The notes under the pieces are model-generated. The model was given only the letters and a program-made list of their open reading frames with translations. It was not told where the DNA came from and ran no database searches. A stretch of 64,000 bases of DNA from Pyronema omphalodes. Its lineage: Eukaryota; Ascomycota; Pezizomycetes; Pezizales; Pyronemataceae. The position numbers and the translations under genes are program-made. The stretch is from NCBI GenBank assembly GCA_024516155.1, contig JAJJXM010000101.1:55374-119373 (forward strand), given 5' to 3'. Position 1 is the first letter of the stretch. Each line of letters begins with the position of its first letter. Shown one piece after another: positions 641-55,342 of this stretch.

Positions 641-1798
641 TTTCTTTTTTTCTTTCCCCCCCCCCCCGCCTTGTTTTTATAATGTTGTATAGATAAACTT
701 TTATCTCCATCATATTTGTTTGTTAAATCAATTGTGTTTTCGGTATCCAACTGATTATCATTGACCTCTCGGCCGCTGAAAAAAATAAGGGGGGGAGGGG
801 TGGCAGCAATTGAATTAAATTGAATCGATGCTAGGAGTTTTCAAGTTACTCCAATACTTCAATGCACCGAATTCAAATCAACTGCTAGTATCTACCGTCC
901 GATGAATTTAACCGATAATAGCTTAAAGAGCTCATGGAATTTTTGCCAACCCAACTTCCTCGCAACTTTCTCGCTGCCTGCGTCTATTATCTATATCTAC
1001 ATCTATATACTCAGAGAATTGACCTGTCATGTTGTATCAGAAATTAGAAGATCCATCCCGAAAAATATATCATGGATAGATATAGCAAAATTTCCTAAGA
1101 GGATCTAGGAGTATAAGATCATAGAAGCAAAGATACAAGAATCTATCTATCATTTTGTACGTAAAAAGATTTGGAACGTCTGTGGTGTTGCCGTATTGTT
1201 ATCATCGTGGGTTTAATTAAATATGGATATGGATATGGATATGGATATGGAAGACATATTACACGATAATTAGGTTACCATCACCATCACCATATCACGT
1301 ATGTAATAACGAATAGCCAGGGACTAAGTGCCTAGGTAGTAGGTACATACGTGTAGGTAGTAGGTACCTCTAACAGAAGTCTAGAAGATTAGAAGACCAA
1401 GGTACCCGATACAGGGGTATCTACATGTAGTTACAAGGGTAAGTTTAAAGTCCATCCGGTGTTCTATTGTATCACTCCACTATCACTCCCGAGTTTTGTA
1501 CCCCCATACAACTTCCAACTTCCGACTTTTAGCTTCCAACACCAAGACCACAACCTTTATGAAGCACTAAATATCTTCCGATGATTATAGTTTAAAATTA
1601 GGTATAATAGAGGGGCTTAATATATATAATCTGTTAACCTTCCTCAGGACCTCAGGAAATCCTACGGTTACGGTTGTAACGTTGCTAAATGTACGGCGAG
1701 AATTCTATGGGGTATCCCGTATGTACTAAACACCCCGCTTGATGAATCGTTGGATAGTGATCCTATGTAACGCGGGGTCATTAGGACTCGGATAAAAT
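641..1798. other. intergenic, no supported gene
   Basis: AT-rich sequence with a C-run (656-667), a G-run (789-800) and a short GGATAT hexanucleotide array at about 1221-1251. A 68-codon ORF at 902-1108 has no recognisable content and was not accepted. The Copia-1 target site AAAAT lies at 1794-1798. Confidence 0.6.
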
Positions 1799-1959
1799 TG
1801 TTGAAGTGCGCCTAAGGCCCTAGTGCTTAGGTGGAGGTGGACCACTCTCTATGTATAGGCACTCGCTTGCCCGTCTATGTCTGACTCCTTACGCTCGTTA
1901 ATACATTCGGTCACCACCTCCACTTTCTTCTTCTCCTCGTGCCTGTGAGACCTTCGACA
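1799..1959 (+). repeat. 5' LTR of Copia-1
   Basis: 161 bp, TGTTGAAG...CTTCGACA, matching 7086-7246 at every base I compared. It is flanked on the left by AAAAT. Confidence 0.97.
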
Positions 1960-1971
1960 GGTTATGAGCCC
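1960..1971 (+). other. primer binding site, initiator tRNA-Met half-molecule type
   Basis: Directly after the LTR the sequence GGTTATGAGCCC is complementary to GGGCTCATAACC, the anticodon arm of eukaryotic initiator tRNA-Met. The match continues, with one extra T, into the adjoining stem (TTGCG). Drosophila copia is primed by a tRNA-iMet fragment cut in the anticodon loop; this site fits that model rather than a tRNA 3'-CCA end. Confidence 0.85.
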
Positions 1972-2064
1972 TTGCGTAACCGCTACTCTTACCGTTATCC
2001 TTTATTAGTCATAACTTATATTATTTCTTCATTTTCCCCTTAATTTTAATCACTCTCTCCCACG

Positions 2065-2979
2065 ATGTCCGACGAAGTCCAAGAACCTACTGCTTTGAAG
2101 TGCCCAATTCTGACGGTCGCCAATTATTCGCAGTGGAAGGACCCCATCCACTTTATCTTGGCCGGGAAAAGCGCCTGGAATATTGTGAACGGGAAGGAGA
2201 CGCGCCCTGCTGGCGGCACCAGCCAACAAGCTCAGAGGGATCTCCAATACTTCGATGAGAGGGCGGCCAGAGGTACCCAGATCATCTTTGACCACTGCGA
2301 CATCACCTGCCGCAGGGTCATCACCGGACTCGACAACCCACGGGAGATGTGGCTAAAACTCGAAGCCCGGTTTGATAACTCGAAAACGAACTCTGGACGA
2401 AGAAACCTCTGGATTAAACTCTGGAGATCAAAGCCAAACCCCGGGCAGTCCATGTCGAAATGGATAACTGATCTCCTCAATATTCAGGCCCCACTTACCG
2501 GTACAGTTTTAGATATCAGCGACACTGCGCTGGTTAATTATGTTATTGCAAATCTCCCCGACTCCTACGGAGTTACAAAACACGAGCTCGCGAAACTTGA
2601 TAATATTGCGGTTGACGAGCTCCAGAAGATCCTGCATGACCACGAGCATATGTGGGAAGCCACCCTAGGATCCCCGAAGGGCGAGGCGCATGCTACGACG
2701 ACCAAGTGGTGCGACCACTGTAAACGCTCTAGCCATAACACGAAGGAATGCTACGCAAATCGCAACAACAACAAACGCGCAGCATCCTCAAGCGCCGGAC
2801 CGTCCAGACCTACTAAAACTTCGAAAAAGGAGGATGTCCAGTGCCACTACTGTACAAAGAAGGGGCACGTTGCGACAGAGTGCAAGCTCAGATCTTCAGC
2901 TACCGCCATACGCGAGCGGTACAAGCTTCGCTCCAGTGCGAAAATTGCCGAGTTAGACAACACTGATCTCGGTATTTGA
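2065..2979 (+). CDS. Copia-1 Gag (nucleocapsid polyprotein)
   Basis: This 304-residue protein starts at the first ATG after the PBS leader. Residues about 1-200 look like the copia Gag/UBN2-type region that forms the particle shell. Two CCHC zinc knuckles follow, at C216-C219-H224-C229 and C260-C263-H268-C273, which should bind RNA. The frame ends in UGA (2977-2979), but the same frame continues without interruption into the protease. Most copia elements have Gag and Pol as one ORF, so this stop is either recent damage or a readthrough control point. The identical LTRs favour a young, possibly functional copy. Confidence 0.95.
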   Translation: MSDEVQEPTALKCPILTVANYSQWKDPIHFILAGKSAWNIVNGKETRPAGGTSQQAQRDLQYFDERAARGTQIIFDHCDITCRRVITGLDNPREMWLKLEARFDNSKTNSGRRNLWIKLWRSKPNPGQSMSKWITDLLNIQAPLTGTVLDISDTALVNYVIANLPDSYGVTKHELAKLDNIAVDELQKILHDHEHMWEATLGSPKGEAHATTTKWCDHCKRSSHNTKECYANRNNNKRAASSSAGPSRPTKTSKKEDVQCHYCTKKGHVATECKLRSSATAIRERYKLRSSAKIAELDNTDLGI

Positions 2980-4614
2980 CTCGGGAATTCCAGCACCTCC
3001 CTAACAGCGCAAGTCTTGATCGCCACAGACTCGTCCGCTGAGACACATACATGGGTGCTCGACTCTGGTGCAACGCACCACTTTTGTAATGATAAATCTG
3101 CTTTTCTTATTGATTCTTTAGCTACTTGCAAGTCCATCAACATTCGCTTAGGTGACAATAGTACAGTCACCACCAACACCTACGGAAAAATCATACTCAA
3201 CAATCTCTTTCAAATTTCTGCACTATACGTTCCCACGTTTCGACTCTCCCTTTCCTCCCTGCCCCTCTTTGATGAAAGGGGGTGGCAAATTACTATGGTG
3301 GACGGTACTTGTACTGTGAAAGACAAGACCTCCAAAACAATCATTGTCGCTCGCATGAAGGACAATCTCTACAGATGGACAGCAGAGGCCATTAAGGAGG
3401 ACCACGACGCCCTGATAACCACTCGTTCTGGTGCAGGCGTCGACATTAACACTATTCCCTCCTCGACCCGAACAACGACATCATCGAATAAACGAACAAG
3501 TGCAGAGGTTGACTTTACGGGTCCAAGCGACAAAGACCTTCGAACAGCACATAGACAGTCTTTCCGCCTTGAACCAACAAGCAATTTCGAGATGTGGCAC
3601 AGGAGACTGGCCCACCTCAATACCGAGTCCTTGTCTAAAATCATTAATTCGACTGATAAAACTACAACATCAGATCATCTCCAGTCCTGCACAACGTGCA
3701 TACAGGCCAAAAACCGACAGTCCTTTATCCGACTACCAACCGAACGTGCGAGCAAGCCTTTCGAACTTGTCCACTCGGATGTCTGCGGCCCGATGTCGAC
3801 TCCGTCGATCAGCCAACGACGGTATTATATCATCTATATTGATGACTTTAGTCGTTTCGCCAAAGTTTACTTTCTGAAATCAAAATCCACAGACGCGGTA
3901 CTACCTGTATTCCAAGAATACAAAGCATGGATTGAGTCTCAAGGACATAAGATTCTTCGGTTCAGGTGTGATAATGGCACAGGGGAATTTAACAATCAAC
4001 AGTTCCGTTCTTTCCTGGCGAAAAACGGTATCTCGTTCGAACCCTCACCACCCTTCACACAGCATAAAAACGGAACTGCCGAGAGATTCATTCAGACAAT
4101 CAACGGCAAAGCACGTTCCATGCTGCTAGACGCCCAAGTTCCTCATCGCTTCTGGGCTGAGGCTGTTAACACAGCGGTGTACCTTCACTCGATATCTCCG
4201 ACTAGGACGCTCAAAGGCTGGCTAAGTCCTCATGAGGCCCTGTTTCACAGGCCGCCTCAGCTGCTACACCTTCGAAGATTCGGTTGCACGGTCTTCAAGC
4301 ATATACCGAAGGAGCAGAGGACAGACAAGAACTGGAGCGCACGCGCGTCACACAGTATGATGGTTGAATACACGGATTCGTCAAAGATTTGGCGCATCTA
4401 TGATTTCAATTCACGTTCTGTCGTGCGCGCTTCCAACGTCGTTTTCTTAGAGGACAATAATGCTTTCGATTCTGAAGGACGTCCCAATACATCAGAGGAA
4501 ATCATCAAGGCAATATCTGACTGTTTCCCTGATATCGTTGAAGGGGGTGATGAGAATGCGTCAGCGCTCATATCACATGAGATAGATGCCCTCATTCAGA
4601 GTATGTACAAATGA
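2980..4614 (+). CDS. Copia-1 protease and integrase (spliced to RT downstream)
   Basis: The frame continues in register with Gag after the UGA; the first ATG-like start is 3016 (532 residues from there). A retropepsin active site D-S-G-A-T lies at residues 16-20. The GAG-pre-integrase zinc domain has H195, H200 and the C-T-T-C pair near residue 227. Integrase catalytic residues are D255 (H-S-D-V), D319 (C-D-N-G) and E356 (T-A-E-R). The protein would cleave Gag-Pol and insert cDNA. The unspliced ORF ends at 4612-4614, only 12 nt inside the predicted intron. Removing 4601-4992 fuses it to the RT frame, so the real polyprotein probably continues. Confidence 0.93.
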   Translation, partial: LGNSSTSLTAQVLIATDSSAETHTWVLDSGATHHFCNDKSAFLIDSLATCKSINIRLGDNSTVTTNTYGKIILNNLFQISALYVPTFRLSLSSLPLFDERGWQITMVDGTCTVKDKTSKTIIVARMKDNLYRWTAEAIKEDHDALITTRSGAGVDINTIPSSTRTTTSSNKRTSAEVDFTGPSDKDLRTAHRQSFRLEPTSNFEMWHRRLAHLNTESLSKIINSTDKTTTSDHLQSCTTCIQAKNRQSFIRLPTERASKPFELVHSDVCGPMSTPSISQRRYYIIYIDDFSRFAKVYFLKSKSTDAVLPVFQEYKAWIESQGHKILRFRCDNGTGEFNNQQFRSFLAKNGISFEPSPPFTQHKNGTAERFIQTINGKARSMLLDAQVPHRFWAEAVNTAVYLHSISPTRTLKGWLSPHEALFHRPPQLLHLRRFGCTVFKHIPKEQRTDKNWSARASHSMMVEYTDSSKIWRIYDFNSRSVVRASNVVFLEDNNAFDSEGRPNTSEEIIKAISDCFPDIVEGGDENASALISHEIDALIQSMYK

Positions 4615-4992
4615 TCACCCCAACTTTTTCCGCGTCACCGCTGTAGGACCTCTCACGGCCACACGGTATAGTCTTTATCACATTATCTTCGAGTCGGATC
4701 AGCCTTCATGCTGACTCACTCTAACTATACATTGACAATTCTGTCTTGAATGTCACTGTCCCGATCAGCCTCCATGCTGTCCGGACTACTCTTGCTAGGC
4801 GAATATGCCACAGACTGATTATCATCAGTTCAAGGATACTTATCCTGGAATTTTATCCGATTAACACTCCGCTGTGCATCTCCTCACGAGATTCTGCCAC
4901 GGAATCCCTGTCTACTGCATTCCTTTGTTTCTCAAATTTCTTTCTCTACTGCTCTGATATTCACTTCTCTGAACTAACATCCTAATTCTCAG
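4601..4992 (+). other. predicted 392-nt spliceosomal intron inside Copia-1 pol
   Basis: The 5' site GTATGT is at 4601-4606. A branch-like CTAAC lies about 18 nt before the 3' site CTCAG (ending 4992). Exon 1 ends with one base of a codon (4600) and exon 2 supplies AT, giving AAT then GCT-TCT-GAT-GAC-ATG, exactly in frame with RT. The interval has stops in all useful frames. Copia-2 keeps the same sites (38257-38651), and its intron differs from this one by more substitutions and indels than the flanking coding sequence. Confidence 0.8.
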
Positions 4993-6836
4993 ATGCTTCT
5001 GATGACATGAATTCACTGTCCCTACGCGACGAGCGACTGAAGGCCAACAAACTAAACAAGTCCCGCTACGAAGACATTGATGTTGACGACGCCCTGGCCT
5101 CGGCCTTTCTTGCCAAAGCAACTATAGACGATCCCGACGAGGCCATAGGTCCTGATTTACTTGACGGCGACCCGACCTCTTACACCGCAGCAATGAAGAG
5201 CGCGGACCGGGACAACTGGAGAACTGCGATGCAAGAAGAATGGAACTCTGTACTGATAAACGAAACCTTCCAGGCCTTCAAATCAAATGACAATGCAGAA
5301 CCTCTCCGACCAGTGTCATCGCCTGATGCATTCGACAATCAAACATCCTACAGCGGCATCACTGTTCCCTTTGGATGCAAGCCCTTGAAGTGTCGATGGA
5401 TTTACAAAACCAAACGCAACATTGACGGCAGCACAAAGTTCAAGGCCCGACTGGTTATAAAGGGTTATGAACAAGTTCCGGGAATTGATTATGATGAGAC
5501 ATATGCACCTGTCTCCAAGCTAAGTACTCTACGTTACCTGCTAAGCTTATCTGCAACCAGGGGGTGGTCAGTCGACCAAATGGATGTTGTCACGGCCTTC
5601 CTCAACCCAGCCATTGACAACGACAGGACTTTCATGTCCATGCCTCCTGGCATCGAATGGCTCGATAAACGTCTATCAAAAACATCGACGGTCCGCCTGC
5701 TGAAAGCCCTGTACGGGCTAAAACAGGCACCCCGATTATGGTGGGCCCAGATTAATGACTTCCTCATGAAGCAAGGTTTCCGACAGGCACACGCCGACTC
5801 CAACCTCTACCTCATGAAGGACGCATTTCTGCTCTTATATGTCGACGATATCTTGATCTTCAATCTGACAAAACAGAGGATGGGCGACAACATCAAGAAG
5901 GCCCTCAGTGCTCGCTTCAAAATGACAGATCTCGGAAAAGCGACTCGTTTTCTCGGCCTCGAACTCGAATACTTGCCTGACGGAAGCATTGCCATCTCGC
6001 AGAAGCATTACATTGAGGGGGTGATTGCCAGATACGGTCTTCTTGAGGCCGCACCCACCTCTTCCCCAATGGACATTCATGTTGATCTTGAGAATACTGA
6101 CTGCGAAGACAAGACCACTGATGAACAGCAAAAACGCCTGTATCTATCAATGGTCGGATCACTGATGTACGCAGCAATCGGAACTCGTCCTGACATCGCC
6201 TTCGCCGTGACTGCCCTCAGCCGATACAATCAGTCGCCTCTAGCAATGCACATGACCGCTGCCAAAAGGGTCATCCGATACTTGAAAGGTACGAAAAATT
6301 TGTCGATTATCTACAAGCGTAACCACGACATACCGCAGGACTGTTTGCGACTCTTCTGCAACAGCGACTGGGCCGGCAGTACAGCCGATCGGAAAAGCGT
6401 CGGGGGGTGCGTGGTCCTTGCGCCAGGAGCGGACGGGCCGATCCACTGGAGCTCAAAGAAGCAGTCCGTCATCGCCCTCTCCACTCTTGAAGCCGAGTAC
6501 ATTGCATGCAGCAATGCGACCCGTGAAGCGATCTGGTTCCGCCTATTGATGGACGACACCGAAGCCTGGGATAACAAAGTGCCGACCTCGGTCCGTTGCG
6601 ACAACATGGGAGCACTTCGCCTCCTTCAGACCGGCGTCATCAAGGCGAAAACAAAACACATCGATGTGAAGTTTCACCACTCGATCGACGAAGCTAGAAA
6701 GGGAACGGTATCGTTCGAATACATTGCGTCCAAAGAAAATGTCGCAGATATCCTCACTAAACCGCTCCCTGGACCAACACACGCGTTGGCCGTGAAACTT
6801 TTAGGGATGGAAACGCTGAGTGGTAATAATGATTAA
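4993..6836 (+). CDS. Copia-1 reverse transcriptase and RNase H
   Basis: Exon 2 of pol; the first ATG is at 5007, giving 609 residues. The RVT_2-type copia reverse transcriptase includes K-C-R-W-I-Y-K near residue 130, the D-V-V-T-A-F-L-N segment and the catalytic Y-V-D-D at residues 278-281. Copia RNase H forms the last about 140 residues (D-W-A-G-S..., T-L-E-A-E-Y, and the D-N-M-G-A segment). No frame damage is visible. The start at 5007 is only the first Met; I infer production from spliced RNA as part of Gag-Pol. Copia-2 encodes a colinear 609-residue homologue with only scattered differences. Confidence 0.95.
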
Positions 6837-7073
6837 TGGGTTTGGTTTGAATGAATAAGTGTGTGTTGTGATTGAAGTATGGCTGCTGATTGCTGTTTAT
6901 GATGATGATTGAATTGTGTTGTTTCTATTTGGGTTGTTCTTCTTATGGGTTTTTACTTCTTCTTTTATGGGTAATTGGGTATTTTCTTTTTCTATGGTAT
7001 TGTTCTTGTTTTTCTGTTACGATGGATTGTTATTTTTTTTTTCTTATTATTATGTTTGTAGCACCCGTCCTTA

Positions 7074-7085
7074 GACGAGGGGGTG
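7074..7085 (+). other. polypurine tract of Copia-1
   Basis: ACGAGGGGGTG lies directly before the 3' LTR, the usual plus-strand priming site. Copia-2 has the same CGAGGGGGTG next to its LTR. Confidence 0.8.
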
Positions 7086-7246
7086 TGTTGAAGTGCGCCT
7101 AAGGCCCTAGTGCTTAGGTGGAGGTGGACCACTCTCTATGTATAGGCACTCGCTTGCCCGTCTATGTCTGACTCCTTACGCTCGTTAATACATTCGGTCA
7201 CCACCTCCACTTTCTTCTTCTCCTCGTGCCTGTGAGACCTTCGACA
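7086..7246 (+). repeat. 3' LTR of Copia-1
   Basis: 161-bp copy of 1799-1959, followed by the target duplication AAAAT at 7247-7251. Confidence 0.97.
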
Positions 7247-7251
7247 AAAAT

Positions 7252-16973: not shown

Positions 16974-17534
16974 CGGCGTTGAGTTGACGGAGTTTAGTTG
17001 ATGGCGTATGCTTGATGTTTAATGTTTGTTTGTTTGTTTGTTCGTTTGATTTTTCTAGAAGCCGTCTGCATTCCAATTTCGCTTTGTTACCGTTCAGTTC
17101 CTGCCACAAATCTGATCTTAACGACGTTCTGTTCATGATTTTCGATATTGGTCGGTATGTATGTACTGGTACTATTTTGAGCTCAAATATATGTATCTTG
17201 TGTTATATGGCACCATATCCCATCAAATTTCCCCATCAACGTTACCCGCATCAAAACGGCCTCGGTAACTGCTGACGGGATCGGCACCATAACTATTTTT
17301 GCTGACCAGCGGCCGCGCGGCCCTAAGCGCCGGCCACCACAGCCATAATAGCCGCGCCACAGCGGCGACAGTGGCAGCAACAGTAACAGTGATAGTGATA
17401 GTGATGGTGACGTAACTTATGCCCCTTGTACTCCCTGTACTCCTGTTACTCGTGCTCACACGCTGATTTCTTGCTGACGAAGTTTACAACGCCTTGAGAA
17501 ATTGGGGAAAAAGGAAAATCCGAGGAAAAAAAGA
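16974..17534. other. intergenic, no supported gene
   Basis: Includes a TTTG/GTTT repeat run at about 17026-17046 and a GC-rich stretch at about 17300-17350 rich in GGCCGC/GCCGCG, followed by GTGATA repeats (17388-17408). No coding content was accepted. Confidence 0.5.
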
Positions 17535-17608
17535 TGATTTCACCCAGGCTCGATCTGGGGACCTTCAGTGTGTTAGACTGATGTGATAACCAACTACACC
17601 ATGAAACC
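17535..17608 (-). tRNA. tRNA-Val (anticodon AAC), inverted copy
   Basis: Reverse complement is identical to the tRNA at 549-622: acceptor GGTTTCA/TGAAATC, anticodon loop CTAACAC, 74 nt, no intron. A T-rich tract follows on the transcribed strand (complement of 17510-17534). The homology with the first copy continues upstream of the tRNA. Confidence 0.93.
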
Positions 17609-17735
17609 ATTTTGTTGTTGGAAATTTAAAACTCAGTAATATAAAGTTACTGTGATGGTTATCGGTCATTGAGGATAGGTATTGGTCATTGGGGATGGGT
17701 ATTGGGGGATGGAGAGAGGGTTCATCAGCGCTTGA
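17535..17735 (-). repeat. inverted duplicate of the tRNA-Val region at about 455-622
   Basis: Beyond the tRNA, the 5' flank (17609-17735) aligns with the reverse complement of about 455-548: both have AATACCCATCCTCAATAACC and a nearby CCATCCTCCAATACCCAT-like motif, with small gaps. The duplication therefore covered tRNA plus about 100 bp of promoter-side flank. The 7-bp array next to the first copy is absent here. Confidence 0.75.
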
Positions 17736-26159: not shown

Positions 26160-26790
26160 GCCATACATAAACACAAAATCACAAAACGCCTCAAAAGGTT
26201 TCAAAACCACTATAGATGCCATGATCCCATAAATACCATGAACAACGCAATGACCAAATTCTGGATACCTGTAGACCCGTGTATAACGGTCTGTATAATA
26301 CCATATGACTTTGGTTTTTTGCGCTTCGTTTTTATGGAGGGGTTTTAAAAAGTCATTTTTTTGCTGCTGGTCTGCTTTGTATCATACAATTTTTTTTTGC
26401 TTTACTGAAATAGCGTTTACATTACACTGGATTTACATTGTTTACATACCTTTGTACCTCGTACATACATACCTAACACAATTACATTGCATCGCATTAT
26501 ATTACGGCATGTTATATTTTTTACTGTTTCATTGATAGATTAATGAAAGGATAAATTGGCGGATAAATGAGATATGGATAGAAGCGACCATGCAAAGCCA
26601 ATAGCATTGCATACCTCATACACTACCAGATGACATTAGTAGCTTCAGTTATTCTTAGCTACCGGATCCACAGTTCTTAATTCTCTAGTCTATATCACCG
26701 TATGATGCGAATATACTAACAAAAGCCACCTTCTTATTCATTTCTCATTCCTTATTTCTCATTCCCCAACTACTGTTTCTTATTGACTCT
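26160..26790. other. intergenic, no supported gene
   Basis: CSL4 3' flank. T-rich stretch near 26356-26400. A 76-codon ORF at 26305-26535 is AT-rich and not convincing. Confidence 0.5.
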
Positions 26791-27163
26791 TTCCAGTCCT
26801 TCCAGTCCTTCCAATCATTTCAATCATTTCAATCATTTCAATCATTTCAATCATTTCAATCATTTCAATCATTTCAATCATTTCAGTCATTTCAATCATT
26901 TCAATCATTTCAATCATTTCAATCATTTCAATCATTTCAATCATTTCAATCATTTCAATCATTTCAATCATTTCAATCATTTCAATCATTTCAATCATTT
27001 CAATCATTTCAATCATTTCAATCATTTCAATCATTTCAATCATTTCAATCATTTCAATCATTTCAATCATTTCAATCATTTCAATCATTTCAATCATTTC
27101 AATCATTTCAATCATTTCAATCATTTCAATCATTTCAATCATTTCAATCATTTCAATCATTTC
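26791..27163. repeat. 9-bp minisatellite (TTTCAATCA)n
   Basis: Regular from about 26813 to 27163, 39 copies, one variant unit TTTCAGTCA near 26882. The array fades at its left edge through TTCCAGTCC and TTCCAATCA units in the same 9-bp register, which shows how it grew. Being a multiple of 3, it is open as N-H-F or M-I-E repeats in several frames; none is accepted as a gene. Confidence 0.97.
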
Positions 27164-28821
27164 ATTGCAATTCCCCGAATCTCACTCACTTACTCAGTTT
27201 ATATATTTCTTTCTTTATTTATCTACCGTGAACACAGGATTTCCCATACGTTATAAAACCAAAAAAAGAAGTTTTTTGTTTATATATTAGGTACATGTAA
27301 GTAAGTTGCTAAACAAACATCTGTTTCCAACTTCCAACTTCTAACCATAACTATAACAACTGCCAGCATATACCACGACCAAACCCTTCGTTCATTTGTA
27401 GTAGTATACTCTTTCCCATATTTTTCAAATCTAATAGAAATATAAATATAAATACCAATATCGGTAGCAGCAGGTGATGCCCAAAGATCGCCGACTGCCG
27501 ACCATCTCTTCCCACATTAGAGCCTTATCGCACTTAGTATGTATAACGTGTATCATTTTTTTCGTTTTCTTTCTGCTAAACACATATATATTAGTAACAA
27601 CGATATTGCCCACTTACACCTCTGTTGAAAGTTGTGCCTGTAGAGCCGTGATATGTGTGTTATGACTGTTCATGGAGGTGGATGTTGCCTTTAGCGCACA
27701 TCCCCCCTTATGTTCTTTCTATCGTTGGATCAGACACTTCGTTCCTCATCCAATATTACATCGTCGTTTCCACCTCCATCTTTTTTCCTCTCTCGTGCAA
27801 AGTCCTCCTACGTCCGACATCTTGCCCTCTAACAACCTCAATCGGGTCACCCTCGTCTCACTCTGTTTCCGCCTAACATCTCACATCTTTGCACTAACCT
27901 GATTTGTTCCAGTCGGGGCTAGGAATTTAAGATAAGCAATTGCATAGCGCGAAAATGCTGTTCTTGTGGCGTCATCATTCTAAGTTGGAACTTGTGAGCT
28001 GAAAACGCGTTGAAAACTTCTCTATATCAGCAGAGAGAGAGCTCGAGCTAAAGATGCGGCGTATTTACCTCATCTATATATGGTTTTTACAATTGATTAG
28101 TTTTTTTTCCATCATATATTAAATTGGTTAGTTCTCTTTCTATTTAAAATTCAGGTTAAAGACGGTGGACGGATCGGATCAATTATTGCGATAAAACCGA
28201 GAGTTCCGAAGTTCCTGCGTTCCATCGTTCCACCATTCCACCGTTCCTGAAAAATGTCAAAACGTAATTTCTAACTTCGGAAAACCCGGTCTCCGGTGTC
28301 TAAGGTTCAGCTAAGCTACTCGCCCTGTCGGATGTCCAGTGCCAACAACGCAAGCGAAAGTTACAAGACACAGTTCGAGTCAACTCTTCTCGTCTGCGTG
28401 ACCAATCATCTTTATAATTTGTAGATATTAGTCGCCAAAGGGAACGCCGGATCTTATTAATTGTGAATCTCGCCGACCCAACCAACAGTTTAAAGCTGCA
28501 CTAAATCGAAATGTATGTAGCCACACAACACGAACGCAACACGACACAGTTCAACTCCGGATCTTGTTGATCCCGTCATCCCATCCCAAGAAATCCGATC
28601 CAAGGTACACCCACCCGGCACTAAAAATCCCTCGATGTAAGACATCAACAAGATCATTTATCGGAACTCCTCCAACCAACTAATGCCGTGTAGCCGCAGT
28701 TTCACGATCCTACAAATACCCAGCCTTCCCCTAGAATAGAGAGTTCCTTCCACTTCAAACCCACCTTCGCAAAAGTCTGTACAAAATACGTATCAGGTAC
28801 ACGAGGACACAAGGACACGAG
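27164..28821. other. intergenic, no supported gene
   Basis: No ORF above noise. Holds imperfect FTTCCxxxGTTCC-type repeats near 28215-28250 (GTTCCATCGTTCC and variants). The last 200 bp are C-rich with CAAG, consistent with a promoter and 5' UTR for the SEC14-like gene. Confidence 0.5.
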
Positions 28822-36412: not shown

Positions 36413-38256
36413 TTAATCATTATTACCATTCAACGTTTCCATCCCTAAGAGTTTCACGGCCAACGCGTGTGTTGGTCCAGGGAGCGGTTTAGTGAGGATA
36501 TCTGCGACATTCTCTTTGGACGCAATGTATTCGAACGATACCGTTCCCTTTCTAGCTTCGTCGATCGAGTGGTGAAACTTCACATCAATGTGTTTTGTTT
36601 TCGCCTTGATGACGCCGGTCTGGAGGAGGCGAAGTGCTCCCATGTTGTCGCAACGGACCGAGGTCGGCACTTTGTTATCCCAGGCTTCGGTGTCGTCCAT
36701 CAATAGGCGGAACCAGATCGCTTCACGGGTCGCATTGCTGCATGCAATGTACTCGGCTTCAAGAGTGGAAAGGGCGATGACGGACTGCTTCTTTGAGCTC
36801 CAGTGAATCGGCCCGTCCGCTCCTGGCACAAGGACTACGCACCCCCCGACGCTTTTCCGATCGGCCGTACTGCCGGCCCAGTCGCTGTCGGAGAAGAGTC
36901 GCAAACAGTCCTGCGGTATGTCGTGGTTACGTCTGTAGATAATCGACAAATGTTTCGTACCTTTCAAGTATCGGATAACCCTTTTGGCAGCGGTCATGTG
37001 CATTGCTAGAGGCGACTGATTGTATCGGCTGAGGGCAGTCACGGCGAAGGCGATGTCAGGACGAGTTCCGATTGCTGCGTACATCAGTGATCCGACCATT
37101 GATAGATACAGGCGTTTTTGCTGTTCATCAGTGGTCTTGTCTTCGCAGTCAGTATTCTCAAGATCAACGTGGATATCCATCGGGGAAGAGGTGGGTGCGG
37201 CCTCAAGAAGACCGTATCTGGCAATCACCCCCTCAATGTAATCCCTCTGCGAGATGGCAATACTTCCGTCAGGCAAATATTCGAGTTCGAGGCCGAGAAA
37301 ACGAGTCGCTTTTCCGAGATCTGTCATTTTGAAGCGAGCACTGAGGGACTTCTTGATGTTGTCGCCCATCCTCTGTTTTGTCAGATTGAAGATCAAGATA
37401 TCGTCGACATATAAAAGCAGAAATGCGTCCTTCATGAGGTAGAGGTTGGAGTCGGCGTGTGCTTGTCGGAAACCTTGCGTCATGAGGAAGTCATTAATCT
37501 GGGCCCACCATAATCGGGGCGCCCGTTTTAGGCCGTACAGGGCTTTCAGCAGGCGAACCGTCGATGTTTTCGATAGGCGTTTATCGAGCCATTCGATACC
37601 GGGAGGCATGGACATGAAAGTCCTGTCGTTGTCAATGGCTGGATTGAGGAAGGCCGTGACGACATCCATTTGGTCGACTGACCACCCCCTGGTTGCAGAT
37701 AAGCTTAGCAGGTAACGTAGAGTACTTAGCTTGGAGACAGGTGCATATGTCTCATCATAATCAATTCCCGGAACTTGTTCATAACCCTTTATAACCAGTC
37801 GGGCCTTGAACTTTGTGCTGCCATCAATGTTGCGTTTGGTTTTGTAAATCCATCGACACTTCAAGGGCTTACATCCAAAGGGGACAGTGATGCCGCTGTA
37901 GGATGTTTGATTGTCGAATGCATCAGGCGATGACACTGGTCGGAGAGGTTCTGCATTGTCATTTGATTTGAAAGCCTGGAAGGTTTCGTTTATCAGTAAA
38001 GAGTTCCATTCTTCTTGCATCGCAGTTCTCCAGTTGTCCCGGTCGGCGCTCTTCATTGCTGCGGTGTAAGAGGTCGGGTCGCAGTCAAGTAGATCAGGAC
38101 CTATGGCCTCGTCGGGATCGTCTATAGTTGCTTTGGCGAGAAAGGCCGAGGCCAGGGCGTCGTCAATATCAATGTCTTCGTAGCGGGACTTGTTTAGTCT
38201 GTTGGCCTTCAGTCGCTCGTCGCGTAGGGACAGTGAATTCATGGCATTGGAAGCAT
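36413..38256 (-). CDS. Copia-2 reverse transcriptase and RNase H exon
   Basis: Uninterrupted frame; first ATG at 38242 gives 609 residues, colinear with Copia-1 and with only scattered substitutions. It keeps the catalytic Y-V-D-D and the RNase H acids. The exon begins at 38256 after the intron, giving A-S-N-A-M-N-S-L; the junction codon is completed by exon 1. The gene is intact here but its upstream integrase frame is physically split by insertions, so a functional polyprotein cannot be made from this copy. Confidence 0.93.
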
Positions 38257-38651
38257 CTGAGAATTAGGATGTTAGTTCAAAGAAGCGAATATCTGAGAAA
38301 TAGAGAGAGAAATTTGAGAAACAGGAAAAACAGTAGACAGGGATTCCGTGGCAGAATCTCGTGAGGAGATGCACAGCGGAGTGTTAATCGGATAAAATTT
38401 TCAGGATAAGTATCCTTGAACTGATGATAATCAGTGTGTGGCATATTCGCCTAGCAAGAGTAGTCCGGACAGCATGAAGGCTGATCGGGACAGTGACATT
38501 CAAGACGAAATTGTCAATGTATAATTAGAGTGAGGCAGCATGAAGGCTGATCCGACTCAAAGATAACGTGAAAGAGACTATACCATGTGGCCGTGAAAAG
38601 GTCCTACAGCGGTGACATGGAAAAAAGGTTGGGGTGATCATTTGTACATAC
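38257..38651 (-). other. predicted 395-nt intron of Copia-2 pol
   Basis: Same 5' site GTATGT (complement of 38646-38651), same CTAAC branch motif and CTCAG end (before 38256) as the Copia-1 intron. The frame is again restored on removal. Substitutions and indels against Copia-1 are frequent within it. Confidence 0.78.
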
Positions 38652-38858
38652 TCTGAATGAGGGCGTCTATCTCATGTGATATGAGCGCTGACGCATTCTC
38701 ATCACCCCCTTCAACGATATCAGGGAAACAGTCAGATATTGCCTTGATGATTTCCTCTGATGTATTTGGACGTCCTTCAGAATCGAAGGCATTATTGTCC
38801 TCTAAAAAGACGACGTTGGAAGCGCGCACGACAGAACGTGAATTGAAGTCATAGATGC
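38652..38858 (-). pseudogene. Copia-2 integrase, C-terminal fragment
   Basis: Codes for the acidic end of the integrase ORF (V-F-L-E-D-N-N-A-F-D, I-D-A-L-I-Q). It is cut at its N-terminal side by the Gypsy-A insertion. The last five bases, GATGC (38854-38858), are the Gypsy-A target duplication. Confidence 0.9.
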
Positions 38859-39231
38859 TGTCACGGCTCGAGAATTATTACCTTCCCCCTCCTCGTCATT
38901 CATTCACCTATTATCATTCGCTTCATTATCCAGCACTCGTTTGTTTATTTATTCCTATTATCCTTCGGTCTTCGATCATCACTCGTCACTCGCCTGGGTT
39001 AGGGTTGCGCTCAATTCCCAAATTGTCAAAAAGGTCACGTGACTTATCCCCAGGGTTAGGGGTCAGCTCGGATCCCTTTTCGGAAATTCCATACCTACGG
39101 TCTACCGATCATCTTATCCGATTAGATAAGATCGGTCACGTGTTCTAATCAATAGTAGATCAGTATGCACGCGCACTGGTCTACTAATGTGCGCACACGT
39201 GACTAGGGCTAGGGCACGATCATCTTATCGA

Positions 39232-39247
39232 TAAGATAAGATCTAGT
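39232..39247. promoter_or_regulatory. perfect palindrome of two GATAAG sites in the Gypsy-A U3
   Basis: ATCTTATCGATAAGAT is a 16-bp perfect palindrome with a further GATAAGATC directly after it. A second arrangement, ATCTTATC and GATAAGAT separated by 6 bp, is at 39111-39132. HGATAR is the target of fungal GATA factors such as AreA/NIT2 or the SreA type; binding is inferred. Confidence 0.6.
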
Positions 39248-39667
39248 CATGTGACCTTATCAGTATTGCACCATCTTTCCAATCGCAGCTGATCTGGTTT
39301 CACGTGACTAGGGTTAGGGTTGCACCCGCACGCGCACAAACTAGGGTTAGGTTTGTGACCGTACGCGCACAGCTAGGGTTAGGGTTACGGACGCACGCGC
39401 ACGATTAGGGTTACGGAAGCGCGCGCGTGACTACGCTTAGGGTTACGCTAGCGCGCACGCGAAGCACGCTACCGCGCACGCGAGTTACGCTATCGCGCAC
39501 GCGAGATACGCTAACGAGCGCGCGACGAGGCTGTGCACGCAAACACGCTAATTTGGTACGAACGCGTTAGCGCGTCTAGAACGCGCAACCGCGACCGCGT
39601 TGTTTACTTAGTTATTTTTCGGGAAAATTCTGCAAGTAGTGGCTCGGCGTGTAAGGAGGAAAAATTG

Positions 39668-39729
39668 TATATAAGAGGATTGTTTCTTTGTTTGTTTATT
39701 TTGTTTTTCTTTTCTCCTTACACAGTTAT
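39668..39729 (+). promoter_or_regulatory. Gypsy-A LTR core promoter and predicted RNA 5' end
   Basis: TATATAAG (39668-39675) lies about 45 nt upstream of TTACACAGTTAT (39718-39729), whose reverse complement is the PBS at 40001-40012. If transcription starts around 39718-39720 the RNA 5' end can fold onto the PBS, as in Tf1. Confidence 0.7.
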
Positions 39730-40000
39730 TTGTTTATTTACAAATTCAAATACTTTGTCGAAAATCTTTGTTTACGTCCTCGTTCTCGTCCCCGTCTTTG
39801 GATCTCTTTGTCCCTTGAAATCTTTGTTTATTTCCTTAACTTCTAAACACAGAAAGTCTTTAAGTTGATGCTAGACACAGCTTAAGAGTTTCTAACGTTG
39901 AAGTTATTATAAGGTTATATCCATTGAACTCAAGAGTGAATAATTGAGAAGAGCCCTCAGGTTCTCCGTCAGCTATCTCTCCCTTGTTCGCCGTTACAAC

Positions 40001-40012
40001 ATAACTGTGTAA
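40001..40012 (+). other. self-priming PBS of Gypsy-A
   Basis: ATAACTGTGTAA begins 2 nt after the LTR and is an exact 12-nt reverse complement of LTR positions 39718-39729. No TGG start or tRNA 3'-end match is present at the LTR border. Tf1 of fission yeast uses the same arrangement. Confidence 0.8.
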
Positions 40013-40061
40013 TCAAGACCTGCCGGCTCTACCGTCAACTCTCGATTACAACAAGCTTTAC

Positions 40062-40232
40062 ATGCTTCACAACCTCTGGTTCTACGAATTCATCAATCTA
40101 TTACCGATCTTCCGTTCCCTCGAAAACCCCGTCGTCCTTGACGAAATCGAAATTGCTCGACAACTCGGAAACGAATACGCAGCAACTCGAATTCAATATA
40201 ACGACGAAACCAACATCTGGCACCTCCGTTAA
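40062..40232 (+). CDS. 56-residue upstream ORF of Gypsy-A
   Basis: A small ORF from ATG 40062 to TAA 40230-40232, in the same frame as Gag and ending 9 nt before the Gag ATG (40242). Composition is protein-like (W-F-Y-E-F-I-N-L-L near the start, I-E-I-A-R-Q-L-G later). It is the first ATG after the PBS, so ribosomes should meet it before Gag. It may limit Gag translation or be translated by readthrough as a Gag leader. I recognise no domain. Confidence 0.55.
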   Translation: MLHNLWFYEFINLLPIFRSLENPVVLDEIEIARQLGNEYAATRIQYNDETNIWHLR

Positions 40233-40241
40233 TCCCTCGAA

Positions 40242-41360
40242 ATGGACCAAAACAACAAGGTCGTCGTGGCCCTGTACCTCAACGAAGCCGAAAGGTTAGA
40301 GGTCGAACAGGACCCTACGAAGATCAAATTGGTCCGTAACGCCGTAAAAGAGTACGAACGAGACTGTCAACTTAGGGACGACCTTCGAGCCGAACTCACA
40401 GAAGCTCGAAAGGACAACTCCCTCTACGCTCAACGAATTACCGATTTGGAAAGAGATCTCGAAAGCGCCAACGCCTCCGTTCGACTCCTACAAGCCCTTA
40501 CGAAGAACGGTCCCCTTCCGAATACCCGTCCCATCGAATTACCCCACCCACCTGAGTTCTCTGGTGAACGCAAGGAACTCTTGAACTTCATCTCGAAGGT
40601 CAGATCCAAGCTCGCCGGAGACTCCTCCCGTTTTACCGACGATCAACATAAGCTACGTTATACTTATGGATATCTCAAAGGCAACGCTCAGAATCAAATT
40701 CAACCCTACGTCCTTACAGATAAGATTAAGCTTAAGGACGTTGAGGCTCTCATTACAATTCTGGAAGCTGCCTTCGGAGATCCTGATCAAGTTGGTACTG
40801 CATCTGCGGAATTGGATAAACTTCAACAGGGCAACCGTGAGTTTAGCCAATACTACGCAGAATTCCAACGATTAATGGCCATCTTGAATTACGACGAAAA
40901 CGCAAAGAAGGCTGCTCTGAAGCGTGGACTCTCTCGAGACCTTCAGACCAGTCTTGTTTACCAAGCCGAAGAACCTCAGAACTTCACCAAATTTGTGGAT
41001 CTTTGTATGAAGCTAGATTACAGAATTCGAGCTCATTCAAACACCACAAAGCGGCACGTTTCTTCGGTCCCCAGTCGTTCCAGCTCCACGCCGTCTCGCC
41101 CGGCGTCCCACCCAACGAATACCAATAGTGGTAATTACGGATCGGCTCCCATGGACCTATCAGCTTCCCAAAAGGCTCAGAACCAACGCCGTCGTGATGA
41201 ACGAATGGCTAAGGGACTTTGTCTTTATTGTGGATCAGCCGATCATTTCAAGAACGAATGTTCTACGTTGGCAGCAAACAACTCCCGCAAGATTCGCCTA
41301 GCCGCCGCCGAGGTTTTGGTTATTCCAACAAACCCCGACGTCGACCAGGGAAAAGAGTAG
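40242..41360 (+). CDS. Gypsy-A Gag
   Basis: 372 residues from ATG 40242. A coiled-coil-like charged N-terminus (residues about 35-85) is followed by the retrotrans_gag core with Y-G-Y-L-K-G-N-A and L-E-A-A-F-G-D-P, then Q-Y-Y-A-E-F-Q-R-L. One CCHC zinc knuckle, C-L-Y-C-G-S-A-D-H-F-K-N-E-C, lies near residue 327. Gag assembles particles and packages RNA. The last codons (CAG-GGA-AAA-GAG-TAG) contain the slippery heptamer that gives access to the overlapping pol frame. Confidence 0.95.
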   Translation: MDQNNKVVVALYLNEAERLEVEQDPTKIKLVRNAVKEYERDCQLRDDLRAELTEARKDNSLYAQRITDLERDLESANASVRLLQALTKNGPLPNTRPIELPHPPEFSGERKELLNFISKVRSKLAGDSSRFTDDQHKLRYTYGYLKGNAQNQIQPYVLTDKIKLKDVEALITILEAAFGDPDQVGTASAELDKLQQGNREFSQYYAEFQRLMAILNYDENAKKAALKRGLSRDLQTSLVYQAEEPQNFTKFVDLCMKLDYRIRAHSNTTKRHVSSVPSRSSSTPSRPASHPTNTNSGNYGSAPMDLSASQKAQNQRRRDERMAKGLCLYCGSADHFKNECSTLAANNSRKIRLAAAEVLVIPTNPDVDQGKE

Positions 41361-41393
41361 TCCATCAACAGCCTGTTGGCTCTGTTGTTGGAC
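41348..41393 (+). promoter_or_regulatory. programmed -1 frameshift signal, Gypsy-A gag/pol
   Basis: Heptamer G GGA AAA (41348-41354) is in phase with Gag codons and one codon before the Gag stop. After a 5-nt spacer, GTCCATCAACAG (41360-41371) can pair with CTGTTGTTGGAC (41382-41393), a 12-position stem with one T-T mismatch and 10-nt loop. Slipping back one base at the heptamer leads to AGA-GTA-GTC in the pol frame. Confidence 0.85.
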
Positions 41394-44300
41394 CAGCCCC
41401 TGCCTCGTCTTTCGTTTCATCTCAGGAAATCGTTTATGTATCCGCTAGTTCTTTGTCAAGTAAACAAGAAAACGAATTGGATGGGAATCATTTGGTCGTG
41501 CCATGTACACTAACTGAACACAATACCAAGATCGATACTCATGCTCTCGTAGACTGCGGATGCACAGGAATTTCCTTCATGAACGAAGACTTCGCACGCC
41601 AACACAACTTCCCCCGTTATCAATTGAAAAACCCCAAAATGGTCGAAGTAATTGATGGACGACCTATTTCATCAGGAGACATCACCGAATACGTTGAAGT
41701 CGAATGTACAATAGGAGACCATCATGAATTACTAACTGCCTACGTTACTCGGCTTGGTCATTATCCCCTCGTTTTAGGAATCCCATGGCTTCGTAAACAC
41801 GATGTTACAATAAACTTCGCCGATAACGATATCAAATTCTCATCACCGAACTGCCTCCCCCACCGAACCACGTTAACACCCACCCCTGTTAAGGGTATTG
41901 CTCCGAAACAACAGAATAAGATCTGTGCCATTTCAGCTACGACGTTTCGACGCATTGTAAACAATGCCAACAACCGTTACGGAAAAGTCGAACAATTCTC
42001 CTTATCTTTGAATGAAATCACCACAGCTCTTCAACCAGAGAAAGAGGAACCGGATCTTAAGACTATTGTACCACCCGAATATCACCAGTACTTGGGAATC
42101 TTCGAAAAGGTCAACGCCGACAAGTTACCGCCCCATCGACCGTCGGATCACAAGATATCACTCGTCGATGGTTTTCAGCCTCCCTTCGGTCCTCTTTACT
42201 CCCTATCACGTCCAGAGTTGGAGGAATTGAAACGTTGGTTAGATGAGAACCTTACCAAAGGTTTCATCCGTGCTTCCTCGTCCCCAGCGGCCGCTCCCAT
42301 TCTTTTCGTAAAGAAAGGCGATGGTTCATTACGGTTGGTGGTCGATTATCGTGGAATCAACGCCGGAACGATCAAGAATCGCTACCCTCTTCCCCTGATG
42401 CAGGATACCTTAATGAACCTTTCAAGAGCTAAGTGGTTCACTAAGCTCGACATTAGGGGGGCGTATAACTTAATACGTATGGCAAATGGGGAAGAATGGA
42501 AAACCGCTTTTCGTACCCGGTACGGATTATTCGAATCATTGGTTATGCCTTTCGGACTTACCAATGCCCCTGCTACGTTTCAGAACTTCATTAACGACGT
42601 ATTGGCACCCTACCTTGATCGATTCTGCACTGCCTATTTGGATGACACCCTGATCTATTCGGATAATCTCGAAGAACATAAACAACATGTTAAATTGATT
42701 CTCGAAGCATTCGAAAAAGCAGGGTTACATCTCAAACCAGAGAAATGCGATTTCCACCAGAAGGAAGTAAAATACTTAGGACTCATCATTAGTACAGAAG
42801 GTATAAAGATGGATCCTGAGAAGATTACTGCAGTTCGAGATTGGGAATCTCCCCGGAACCTCAAAGATGTTAGAGCGTTTTTGGGATTTGCAAACTTCTA
42901 TCGACGTTTCGTTAAGAACTATTCAAAAATAGTCCAACCTCTTACGTTACTCACACGTAAAGGAGTTCCTTTCGTCTGGTCAGAATCCCAACAACAGGCC
43001 TTTGAGGAATTGAAATCAACATTTACATCCGCCCCCGTTTTGGCTCGTTTCGACCCAGACCGGGATGTTATTGTCGAAACCGATGCCTCTGATTATGTCT
43101 CCGCCGGAGTTCTTTCTCAATATGATGATGAAGGAATCTTACATCCTATTGCTTACTTCTCAAAGAAACATTCCCCCGCTGAATGTAATTATGAGATATA
43201 CGATAAAGAACTCATGGCTATCGTCCGGGCCTTCGAGGAATGGCGTCCCGAATTGCAATCTGTTATTAATCCCATCCGAGTACTGTCAGATCATAAGAAT
43301 CTGGAATATTTCACTTCGACAAAGCTCTTGAACCGCCGTCAAGCCCGTTGGTCCCAGTTCTTGTCTCAGTTTAATTTTAAGATTGTTTACCGCCCCGGCA
43401 CCGCAGGCGGTAAACCAGACGCACTGACTCGTCGATCCGGAGATCTGCCTAAAGAGGGGGATGAACGCTCCCTAGAGAACCACACAACGATCATTAAGCC
43501 AGAGAATATCCTTCACGCTGCGGCTGTTACCCCCAGTAATCAACAAACAATAACGAATTCGCAACAAACCGTAATACCGGACCCACAACAAACAAACCCC
43601 ACCTTATCCCAGCTCTTCACGGAAGCCTACGAGAAAGACCCATTCCCCATTAAGGTTATTGAAATGCTAAACAATAACACTCGCTATTGTAAAGACATTA
43701 CATTAGCTGAATGTACGGTAAACAATAACCGTTTATTCTACCGGGGATGTTTATGGGTCCCGAATTACGAACCCCTACGATTACACCTAATGCAACAACA
43801 CCACGACTCCCCCACGGCTGGACACCCAGGAAGATCTAAAACATTAGAATACCTCTCAAGAACCTATACGTGGCCCCAGATGAGGACGGACGTGGAAAGA
43901 TATATTCGAAATTGTCATACCTGCCAACGTTCGAAACCTACCAGACATGCCCCGTTTGGTATCCTACGCCCACTACCTATTCCAGAAAGACCTTGGCAGG
44001 ACATATCAATGGACTTCGTAACAGGATTACCGTGGTCTAATGGGTGTGATGCAATTTGGGTAGTTGTGGATAGATTAACCAAAGAACGACATCTGATTGC
44101 CTGTCGAACAGACATCGACGCAAAGGAATTATCGTCTTTGTTTATTACCCACATCTTTCGATTGCATGGACTCCCTCTTACCATTATCTCTGATCGAGGA
44201 CCTCAATTCGCTGCTTTGTTTTGGAAGAATCTCTGTCGACGTTTGGGAATCGAGCCTCGATTATCTACAGCATTCCATCCCCAAACGGACGGCCAAACAG

Positions 44301-45076
44301 AACGAATGAACGCCATCATGGAACAATACCTCCGAGCTCACGTCAACTATCTTCAAGACGATTGGGCTGATTGGTTACCATTAGCGGAATTCGCTGCGAA
44401 TAACCAAGCATCCGAGACAACGGGAACTTCCCCGTTCTTTGCTAATAAAGGATTCGACCCCCGTTGTCAATTCGATTTACTTCCAGCAGCTACGAACGAT
44501 GTAAACGATCGACGGGCCCTCACAACTTCGAAAACCCTCGCCGAAATCCATAACCATTTACGAGCTGAGATCAACAGAGCTAATCTACGTTATCAAGAGA
44601 ATGCCGATAAACATCGACTCCCGTCACCGAATTATCAGCCCGGAGATCTGGTATGGATGAATGCCCGTAATTGGAAAACCCGTCGACCCTCCCGGAAATT
44701 AGACAACAAACGTTACGGACCCCTCAAGATTATCGCCAAAGTATCCCCCTATGCCTATCGATTAGAACTACCTCCGACAATGAAATGTCACAACGTTCAA
44801 CATGTTTCCTTATTGGAACCCGCTGCGAATGACCCCTACCCCGGTCAACAATCAGACCCACCACCCCCGGTGGAAATCGACGGTGAAGACGAATACTTCA
44901 TCGAAGCTATCCTCGACTCCCGAATTCACCGGAAGAAACTTCAGTATATGGTTAAATGGGTTGGATACGATATGCCCGATTGGGAACCCGCCGAACTCCA
45001 TTTCGACAGTAAAGCCGTTGACGACTTTCATAAAAAGTATCCCGATAAACCGGGACCCCTCCCCAACTTATCTTAG
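41354..45076 (+). CDS. Gypsy-A Pol: protease, RT, RNase H, integrase, chromodomain
   Basis: The pol frame is open from 41219 to 45076, but entry is expected at 41354 by -1 frameshift; the first residues after the slip are R-V-V-H-Q-Q. Numbering from 41219: protease V-D-C-G-C-T near 111; RT with V-D-Y-R-G-I-N, F-T-K-L-D-I-R-G-A-Y and catalytic Y-L-D-D; RNase H with E-T-D-A-S-D; integrase zinc domain ending C-H-T-C, then catalytic D-F-V-T-G-L, S-D-R-G-P-Q-F and T-D-G-Q-T-E-R. The C-terminal chromodomain has Y-M-V-K-W-V-G-Y and D-W-E-P-A-E, suited to steering insertion into heterochromatin. No frame damage. Confidence 0.95.
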   Translation, partial: RVVHQQPVGSVVGPAPASSFVSSQEIVYVSASSLSSKQENELDGNHLVVPCTLTEHNTKIDTHALVDCGCTGISFMNEDFARQHNFPRYQLKNPKMVEVIDGRPISSGDITEYVEVECTIGDHHELLTAYVTRLGHYPLVLGIPWLRKHDVTINFADNDIKFSSPNCLPHRTTLTPTPVKGIAPKQQNKICAISATTFRRIVNNANNRYGKVEQFSLSLNEITTALQPEKEEPDLKTIVPPEYHQYLGIFEKVNADKLPPHRPSDHKISLVDGFQPPFGPLYSLSRPELEELKRWLDENLTKGFIRASSSPAAAPILFVKKGDGSLRLVVDYRGINAGTIKNRYPLPLMQDTLMNLSRAKWFTKLDIRGAYNLIRMANGEEWKTAFRTRYGLFESLVMPFGLTNAPATFQNFINDVLAPYLDRFCTAYLDDTLIYSDNLEEHKQHVKLILEAFEKAGLHLKPEKCDFHQKEVKYLGLIISTEGIKMDPEKITAVRDWESPRNLKDVRAFLGFANFYRRFVKNYSKIVQPLTLLTRKGVPFVWSESQQQAFEELKSTFTSAPVLARFDPDRDVIVETDASDYVSAGVLSQYDDEGILHPIAYFSKKHSPAECNYEIYDKELMAIVRAFEEWRPELQSVINPIRVLSDHKNLEYFTSTKLLNRRQARWSQFLSQFNFKIVYRPGTAGGKPDALTRRSGDLPKEGDERSLENHTTIIKPENILHAAAVTPSNQQTITNSQQTVIPDPQQTNPTLSQLFTEAYEKDPFPIKVIEMLNNNTRYCKDITLAECTVNNNRLFYRGCLWVPNYEPLRLHLMQQHHDSPTAGHPGRSKTLEYLSRTYTWPQMRTDVERYIRNCHTCQRSKPTRHAPFGILRPLPIPERPWQDISMDFVTGLPWSNGCDAIWVVVDRLTKERHLIACRTDIDAKELSSLFITHIFRLHGLPLTIISDRGPQFAALFWKNLCRRLGIEPRLSTAFHPQTDGQTERMNAIMEQYLRAHVNYLQDDWADWLPLAEFAANNQASETTGTSPFFANKGFDPRCQFDLLPAATNDVNDRRALTTSKTLAEIHNHLRAEINRANLRYQENADKHRLPSPNYQPGDLVWMNARNWKTRRPSRKLDNKRYGPLKIIAKVSPYAYRLELPPTMKCHNVQHVSLLEPAANDPYPGQQSDPPPPVEIDGEDEYFIEAILDSRIHRKKLQYMVKWVGYDMPDWEPAELHFDSKAVDDFHKKYPDKPGPLPNLS

Positions 45077-45101
45077 AAGTTACTTCGCCGGAGCTCAGTC
45101 C

Positions 45102-45115
45102 AAGAAGGGGGATCC
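45102..45115 (+). other. polypurine tract of Gypsy-A
   Basis: AAGAAGGGGGATCC directly before the 3' LTR. Only 39 bp separate the pol stop from the LTR, so no third ORF exists in this element. Confidence 0.8.
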
Positions 45116-47800: not shown

Positions 47801-47805
47801 GTTCC

Positions 47806-49160: not shown

Positions 49161-49174
49161 CCACCTCCCCCCTG
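49161..49174 (-). other. polypurine tract of Gypsy-C
   Basis: On the minus strand CAGGGGGGAGGTGG directly precedes the LTR start TGTCACACCC. Confidence 0.8.
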
Positions 49175-55340: not shown

Positions 55341-55342
55341 AG

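Follow-up and report, generated by a model that had tools for sequence, protein, structure and literature searches.

The window analysed here, a stretch of 64,000 nucleotides from a contig of Pyronema omphalodes, carries a copia-type LTR element at 1799-7246, in which Gag, protease-integrase (PR-IN) and reverse transcriptase (RT) follow one another in that order. A host gene in the same window, for DNA polymerase alpha subunit B, shows 95% identity to Pyronema domesticum, which places the host in or near Pyronema. The features of the copia-type element are the following.

1794..1798, no strand assigned: left copy of the 5-bp target-site duplication, repeated at 7247-7251 and identical on both sides (locus L031)
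1799..1959, plus strand: 5' LTR of 161 bp, identical at 161/161 positions to 7086-7246
7086..7246, plus strand: 3' LTR, paired with the 5' LTR
2065..2979, plus strand: Gag frame, from the first ATG at 2065 to the TGA at 2977-2979 (PF14223, E 2.6e-15)
2977..2985, plus strand: TGA followed by CTC, in frame, a candidate leaky stop at the Gag/Pol boundary, kept across copies
2980..4600, plus strand: pol exon 1 with protease and integrase (rve, gag_pre-integrs, SH3_retrovirus), its last base being codon position 1; pN/pS 0.10
4601..4992, plus strand: predicted phase-1 intron of 392 nt, with GTATGT at 4601-4606, a CTAAC branch motif at 4974-4978 and a CAG acceptor at 4990-4992
4993..6836, plus strand: pol exon 2 with reverse transcriptase (RVT_2, E 1.4e-58) and what we take to be the RNase H region, which had no Pfam match; pN/pS 0.16

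The Pfam order PF14223, rve, SH3_retrovirus, RVT_2 places the integrase (IN) before RT, as in Ty1/copia elements, and the paired LTRs and 5-bp target-site duplication of that group are both present. The element (copia-1) lies about 1.2 kb from a tRNA-Val(AAC) gene at 548-623 on the plus strand; a second such gene at 17533-17609 on the minus strand is inverted relative to the first, and both sit inside a 136-nt repeat whose copies are 87% alike. Tandem arrays with 14-nt and 9-nt units were observed at 116-519 and 26693-27300.

At the DNA level, the interval 4601-4992 has the features of a functional spliceosomal intron that separates IN from RT. It begins with GTATGT at 4601, contains CTAAC at 4974-4978 and ends with CTCAG at 4992. 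Read unspliced, the integrase frame from 2980 stops at 4612-4614 within the gap, and the RT frame is open over 4986-6836. Since base 4600 is codon position 1 and base 4993 codon position 2, the interruption is in phase 1. The features of a U2-type intron (GT donor, branch motif, AG acceptor and frames in register) are thus all present, the register being read from coordinates and not from joined exons. A second, rearranged element in the window, copia-2, was compared with the first over the same region.

38257..38651, minus strand: copia-2 intron of 395 nt, with the same sites as 4601-4992 (loci L017 and L047)
36413..38256, minus strand: copia-2 exon 2, RT-RNase H (RVT_2, E 1.6e-57)
38652..38858, minus strand: end of copia-2 exon 1 (IN), truncated by a nested LTR element

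The ungapped arms of the alignment were 97% alike where mostly exonic (4394-4629 and 4926-6924) and 94% alike within the gap (4653-4854). The first-pass annotation of this DNA had described the 392 nt between the two pol frames bounded by these motifs, a split codon restored exactly by its removal, the same sites over 395 nt in copia-2, and a copia-2 intron that differs more than its flanking exons; the coordinates and the alignment agree with all four statements. Copia-2 itself is broken into pieces (matches at 38623-38858, 46255-46683 and 63234-63375) by nested LTR elements at 38854-45410, 46684-62740 and 47806-55642, whose 300-nt end stretches are identical. The insertion at 38854-45410 is a Ty3/gypsy element with a chromodomain.

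The 60.8 Mb genome assembly was searched with the RT protein as query, and 71 of the 168 candidates were scored. Family 1 comprises the 51 matches with at least 85% identity, in which some copies are represented by more than one piece; the 14 matches at 61-68% make up family 2, and the six at 48-50% are family 3 and its kin. In family 1 the intron was kept in 29/29 distinct copies that could be read on both sides, with a length of 390-399 nt (the alignment has 30 rows, of which L037 and L014 are the same place). GTATGTAC, AACTAACAT and the terminal AG were unchanged in all 29, one copy (L023) having a TAG acceptor in place of CAG. A second count, made by coordinates only, started from 40 scored ends among 54 candidate IN ends, with six RT starts added from the RT protein search. 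The RT start lay 381-399 nt past the IN end in 34 of the 40 and 4.4-23 kb past it in three, and three had no partner; a gapless IN-RT junction was found at none of the 37 IN ends having an RT partner. Four of the 30 listed copies (L003, L004, L007 and L028) have their left end inside the 392-nt intron and were excluded from the conservation count; the truncation point of L007 adjoins the LTR of another copy. These four, together with the three IN ends 4.4-23 kb from RT, suggest that insertions in or near the intron may be tolerated. The family includes broken members, since seven of the 30 RT matches that came first contain internal stops. Two copies, L059 and L060 (contigs C31 and C210), form a diverged subfamily, possibly of mosaic origin, that is 94% identical to the window copy over the last 200 nt of exon 1 and about 80% identical over early exon 2.

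Outside family 1, three more lineages of this genome, with RT from about 65% down to 48% identical, had an intron in phase 1 at the corresponding position, in 5/5, 2/2 and 1/1 copies read; their acceptors were picked by us from the frame and the branch motif. In family 2 (five copies read among the 14 matches) the signals were A/GTATGT, CTAAT and TTTAG over 404-413 nt, the slash marking the exon-intron boundary. In family 3 they were A/GTAAGC, CTAAT and GATAG over 207 and 211 nt, and in L053, a decayed and more distant copy, A/GTAAGA, CTGAC and TTAG over 149 nt. No blastn match at E 1e-3 was obtained between family 2 and family 1, in the intron or in the exon ends. RT-RNase H might also be produced independently of splicing, through an internal promoter, internal initiation or reinitiation. 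In families 1 and 3 an ATG does occur close to the start of exon 2, within a few codons, and a minor promoter is reported for the gag-pol junction of Tca2. Family 2, on the other hand, has no ATG across about 48 first codons of exon 2, which rejects an independent RT start as a general answer, and such a start leaves the invariant donor, branch and acceptor unexplained. We regard production of RT without splicing as very unlikely.

To read the copies as products of transposition, the 20 best RT matches were taken with their flanks; 17 of these extend across the junction on either side, and the intron is present in every one. Fifteen full-length copies had LTR pairs 5.2-5.4 kb apart with 0-3 differences per pair (10 pairs identical), a distance filter that would exclude an intronless copy, and the assessment of intron absence accordingly draws on the 17 of 20 copies and 37 of 40 IN ends. 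Target duplications of exactly 5 bp flanked 13 of the 15 (nine directly, four after reading a longer LTR end), and the other two match at 4 of 5 positions. By our own arithmetic, with each copy counted as one event, 0/17 spliced copies means that fewer than about 16% of the templates were spliced (95% bound). Because the 15 full-length copies keep the intron and no gapless IN-RT junction occurs among the 37, the transposition template is the unspliced RNA, as the first-pass annotation had proposed. Retention would say nothing about the packaged RNA if the copies had spread by duplication of DNA. L059 and L060 are near-identical, and a few copies may indeed be duplicated segments; the 15 full-length copies, by contrast, have their own flanks, and the 13 with exact 5-bp duplications contradict duplication as the source of all copies, the remaining two matching at 4 of 5. 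We consider this explanation extremely improbable.

Upstream, the coding capacity of the unspliced RNA is affected by a second conserved feature, an in-frame UGA-CU[C/A] between Gag and protease that the first-pass annotation overlooked. The Gag TGA at 2977-2979 is followed by CTC, in frame with protease, and is kept in 15/15 distinct family-1 copies (16 rows, L037 and L044 being one copy). TGA CTC was also present in family 2 (2/2) and in L051 of family 3, and TGA CTA in L053. The element therefore has the in-frame UGA between gag and pol that characterizes UGA-readthrough elements, and UGA-CUA is a recognised readthrough context. The first-pass annotation had inferred that unspliced RNA encodes Gag-protease-integrase only. 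PR-IN does lie before the intron, but the conserved TGA closes Gag ahead of protease, and hence the unspliced RNA does not simply code for Gag-PR-IN.

Next, we compared substitution in the exons and the intron, as the first-pass annotation had suggested. Against the window copy, RT had a median pN/pS of 0.16 across 29 copies, and PR-IN one of 0.10 across 16 rows, of which two represent a single copy. Between L001 and the diverged L060, exon 1 differed by 5, 3 and 42 per 200 at codon positions 1, 2 and 3, the intron by 92/389, and early exon 2, a looser linker, by 10/63, 4/64 and 24/64 at the three positions. Intron differences were 44/388 for L061 and 18/392 for L005, compared with 35/200 and 15/200 at exon-1 position 3; in the nearer copies (L061, L005, L013 and L021) the intron rate was equal to or slightly below the exon-1 third-position rate. 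Both flanking frames are under purifying selection, and the body of the intron drifts at about the rate of third codon positions. From pN/pS and the position-wise counts it follows that, splice signals aside, the intron drifts like silent sites while the exons are held.

A drifting body is what would be expected if the intron were real and efficiently spliced with no regulatory meaning, persisting since packaging selects rare unspliced RNA, for instance through a signal in the intron; little of the intron need then be functional. Some blocks other than the splice signals are also invariant. Two copies of a GATCAGCCT[TC]CATGCTG block, at 4697-4713 and 4763-4779, are mostly conserved and could form a small hairpin. 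The fold z of the intron was -2.56, versus -1.98 in neighbouring coding sequence; compensatory changes were seen in 3/72 pairs, with a covariation term of about 0. Predicted paired columns differed less than the others, at 17/114 versus 72/275 in the centroid fold (p 0.017) and 37/191 versus 52/198 in the MFE fold (p 0.12). A packaging structure within the intron is thus weakly hinted at by these models, and both the invariant blocks and the paired columns fit an intron that merely carries such a signal. A single phase-1 position in four lineages suggests more than accident, but old introns can merely persist. An intron without regulatory meaning appears unlikely, though by a good deal the least so of the alternatives considered.

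Relatives outside this genome are known to us as predicted proteins only, from public genomes and metagenomes. The protein searches covered RT of 339-1078 aa and PR-IN of about 299-952 aa; this range leaves out any long unbroken polyprotein, so that the counts give no estimate of how common split elements are elsewhere. PR-IN and RT occurred as separate frames in many relatives, and ten pairs, matched by eye, lie on contigs of exactly equal length. In some relatives Gag and IN shared one frame (PF14223 rows among the listed matches). Of 1013 IN relatives found, 120 were listed and 99 of these align to residue 490, 14 of the 99 being fused to RT. Among the 85 unfused PR-IN tails, 37 contained S-[M/K]-[FSYCLW or end], compared with a mean of 8.2 and a maximum of 17 in 500 shuffles; when the base preceding the donor was left free (S, G, R or C) the count was 49/85, compared with 16.8 (maximum 28). 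These counts are to be read with the motif having been defined after the tails were seen, with rows that are related and not independent, and with two rows (P0127 and P0128) that resemble this host. The tail reads as the trace of a phase-1 A/GTATGT or A/GTAAGT donor translated unspliced, and by this donor signature the intron is probably present in elements of other fungi.

Continuous IN-RT frames also exist. They numbered 12 among the 120 relatives in another listing. An RT tree was built by a quick method from 93 rows, of which 73 were called split, 17 continuous and three unclear, a split call possibly reflecting a contig end or frameshift. One clade of 50 (SH-aLRT 94) contained 48 split and two continuous rows, the seven distant outgroups were all continuous, and eight more continuous rows fell among nearer relatives. 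Because the split label changes at least ten times on well-supported branches, the tree does not show a single gain followed by rare loss. A search of a viral contig collection for DNA of these relatives gave no match. Thirteen distant copia loci (30-39% identity) were found on contigs of bacterial and archaeal genomes, which are probably eukaryotic contamination; seven of the 13 were included in the RT tree. In eight (L062, L065-L070 and L073) one frame runs for 1169-1591 aa, in three others (L063, L071 and L072) a frame of 913-1155 aa includes both IN and RT, and L064 and L074 are partial, so that 11/13 have IN and RT in a continuous frame.

Continuous family members in other species were what the first-pass annotation had named as possible evidence that the gap is a decayed insertion. 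They do exist, and the 11 of 13 distant loci fit a once continuous pol split by an insertion or indel, with splice-like motifs arising by chance. The decay they were meant to indicate is contradicted by the low pN/pS (0.16 for RT, 0.10 for PR-IN) and by the intron in three further lineages, and is rejected by the position-wise rates as well. The gap is present in 29/29 copies with invariant splice signals, four lineages have it in phase 1, the frames on either side are under purifying selection, and there are recent insertions, all of which leaves this reading with next to no credibility.

Given the intron signals, their phase and conservation, retention through transposition, selection on the exons and the conserved UGA, all present in the DNA, we consider it probable that this is a Ty1/copia-type element whose pol is split by a functional, incompletely used spliceosomal intron, with a readthrough UGA, and that splicing adds RT-RNase H. 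One LTR-driven transcript would exist in an unspliced and a spliced form. The unspliced RNA would serve as transposition template and Gag mRNA and, on occasional readthrough of UGA-CU[C/A], yield Gag-PR-IN, whose last few codons would be read from the intron. From the spliced RNA an identical Gag would be made, which readthrough would extend to the complete Gag-PR-IN-RT-RH, so that the RNA making RT would be separate from the RNA being copied. RT-RNase H would be doubly limited because its production needs both readthrough and splicing. We infer that splicing occurs, that it is partial (the intron survives transposition and RT is needed), that the UGA is read through (it is conserved) and that this gating matters to the element. 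More tentatively, a large and old fungal copia clade may keep both a leaky UGA and a phase-1 intron as gates that separate RT from Gag, genome RNA and polymerase mRNA being separate molecules as in complex retroviruses. The element would keep its genomic RNA from being spliced, perhaps through a signal that the intron itself carries, and continuous members would be intron losses via copied spliced RNA. We hold this wider picture to be possible rather than probable.

Any retrotransposon whose intron survives reverse transcription has to keep its genome RNA apart from its messenger RNA. With the intron found at an identical position in four lineages of this genome, and probably present in elements of other fungi, the escape of genomic RNA from the spliceosome and the dosage of RT are directly testable in a filamentous fungus. 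There is also a consequence for annotation: gene-calling software breaks up a pol gene of this kind, and its IN and RT end up in the records as unconnected hypothetical proteins.

Several known systems are comparable. Ogre resembles the window element in being an LTR element that retains an intron. It differs as a plant Ty3/gypsy element; the window element has the order PR-IN-RT, with Gag also closed by UGA, and in place of the Ty3/gypsy polymerase (RVT_1, IN after RT) it has RVT_2 with IN before RT. Ogre is spliced between ORFs (PMC3735527) and called 'partially spliced' in the title of a cited paper, and Ogre and EVADE have functional introns yielding subgenomic RNAs (PMC12786077). In CRR, also plant Ty3/gypsy, splicing removes rt (PMC3735527); splicing decides there whether rt is in the RNA, as it would here, but CRR loses rt, whereas here RT would enter the frame. 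Drosophila copia, barley BARE1 and Arabidopsis EVADE are Ty1/copia elements in which alternative splicing gives a Gag-only RNA (PMC3735527, PMC12786077). For the sites of the intron at 4601-4992 this is not the arrangement: Gag already terminates with the TGA at 2977, 1.6 kb ahead of the donor, and RT-RH is what splicing would add. Foamy virus Pol is made from spliced RNA (PMC5014426), but there, in a retrovirus, all Pol functions are on the spliced RNA, whereas here only RT-RH would depend on splicing. In Cer1 of C. elegans, an animal LTR element, a protein from spliced RNA exports the unspliced Cer1 RNA (PMC12786077). The fungal copia elements Tca2 (Candida) and VdLTRE5 (Verticillium) share the UGA between gag and pol, and their descriptions, in the portions available, mention no pol intron; the Tca2 junction alone gave no readthrough in S. 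cerevisiae.

In the available portions of the open-access literature, including PMC3441728, PMC1142308, PMC13148404, PMC12477816, PMC10817607 and PMC2194720 (most subscription journals and Repbase fall outside this scope), we found no description of a copia IN/RT intron. The first-pass statement that no example of this layout is known holds to that extent, but the mechanism itself is known in Ogre, CRR and EVADE. Splice-regulated pol is thus already known from Ogre, CRR and foamy viruses, and splicing in the copia group is known for Gag; the copia IN/RT intron looks like a new variation on these systems, and it probably extends beyond this genome.
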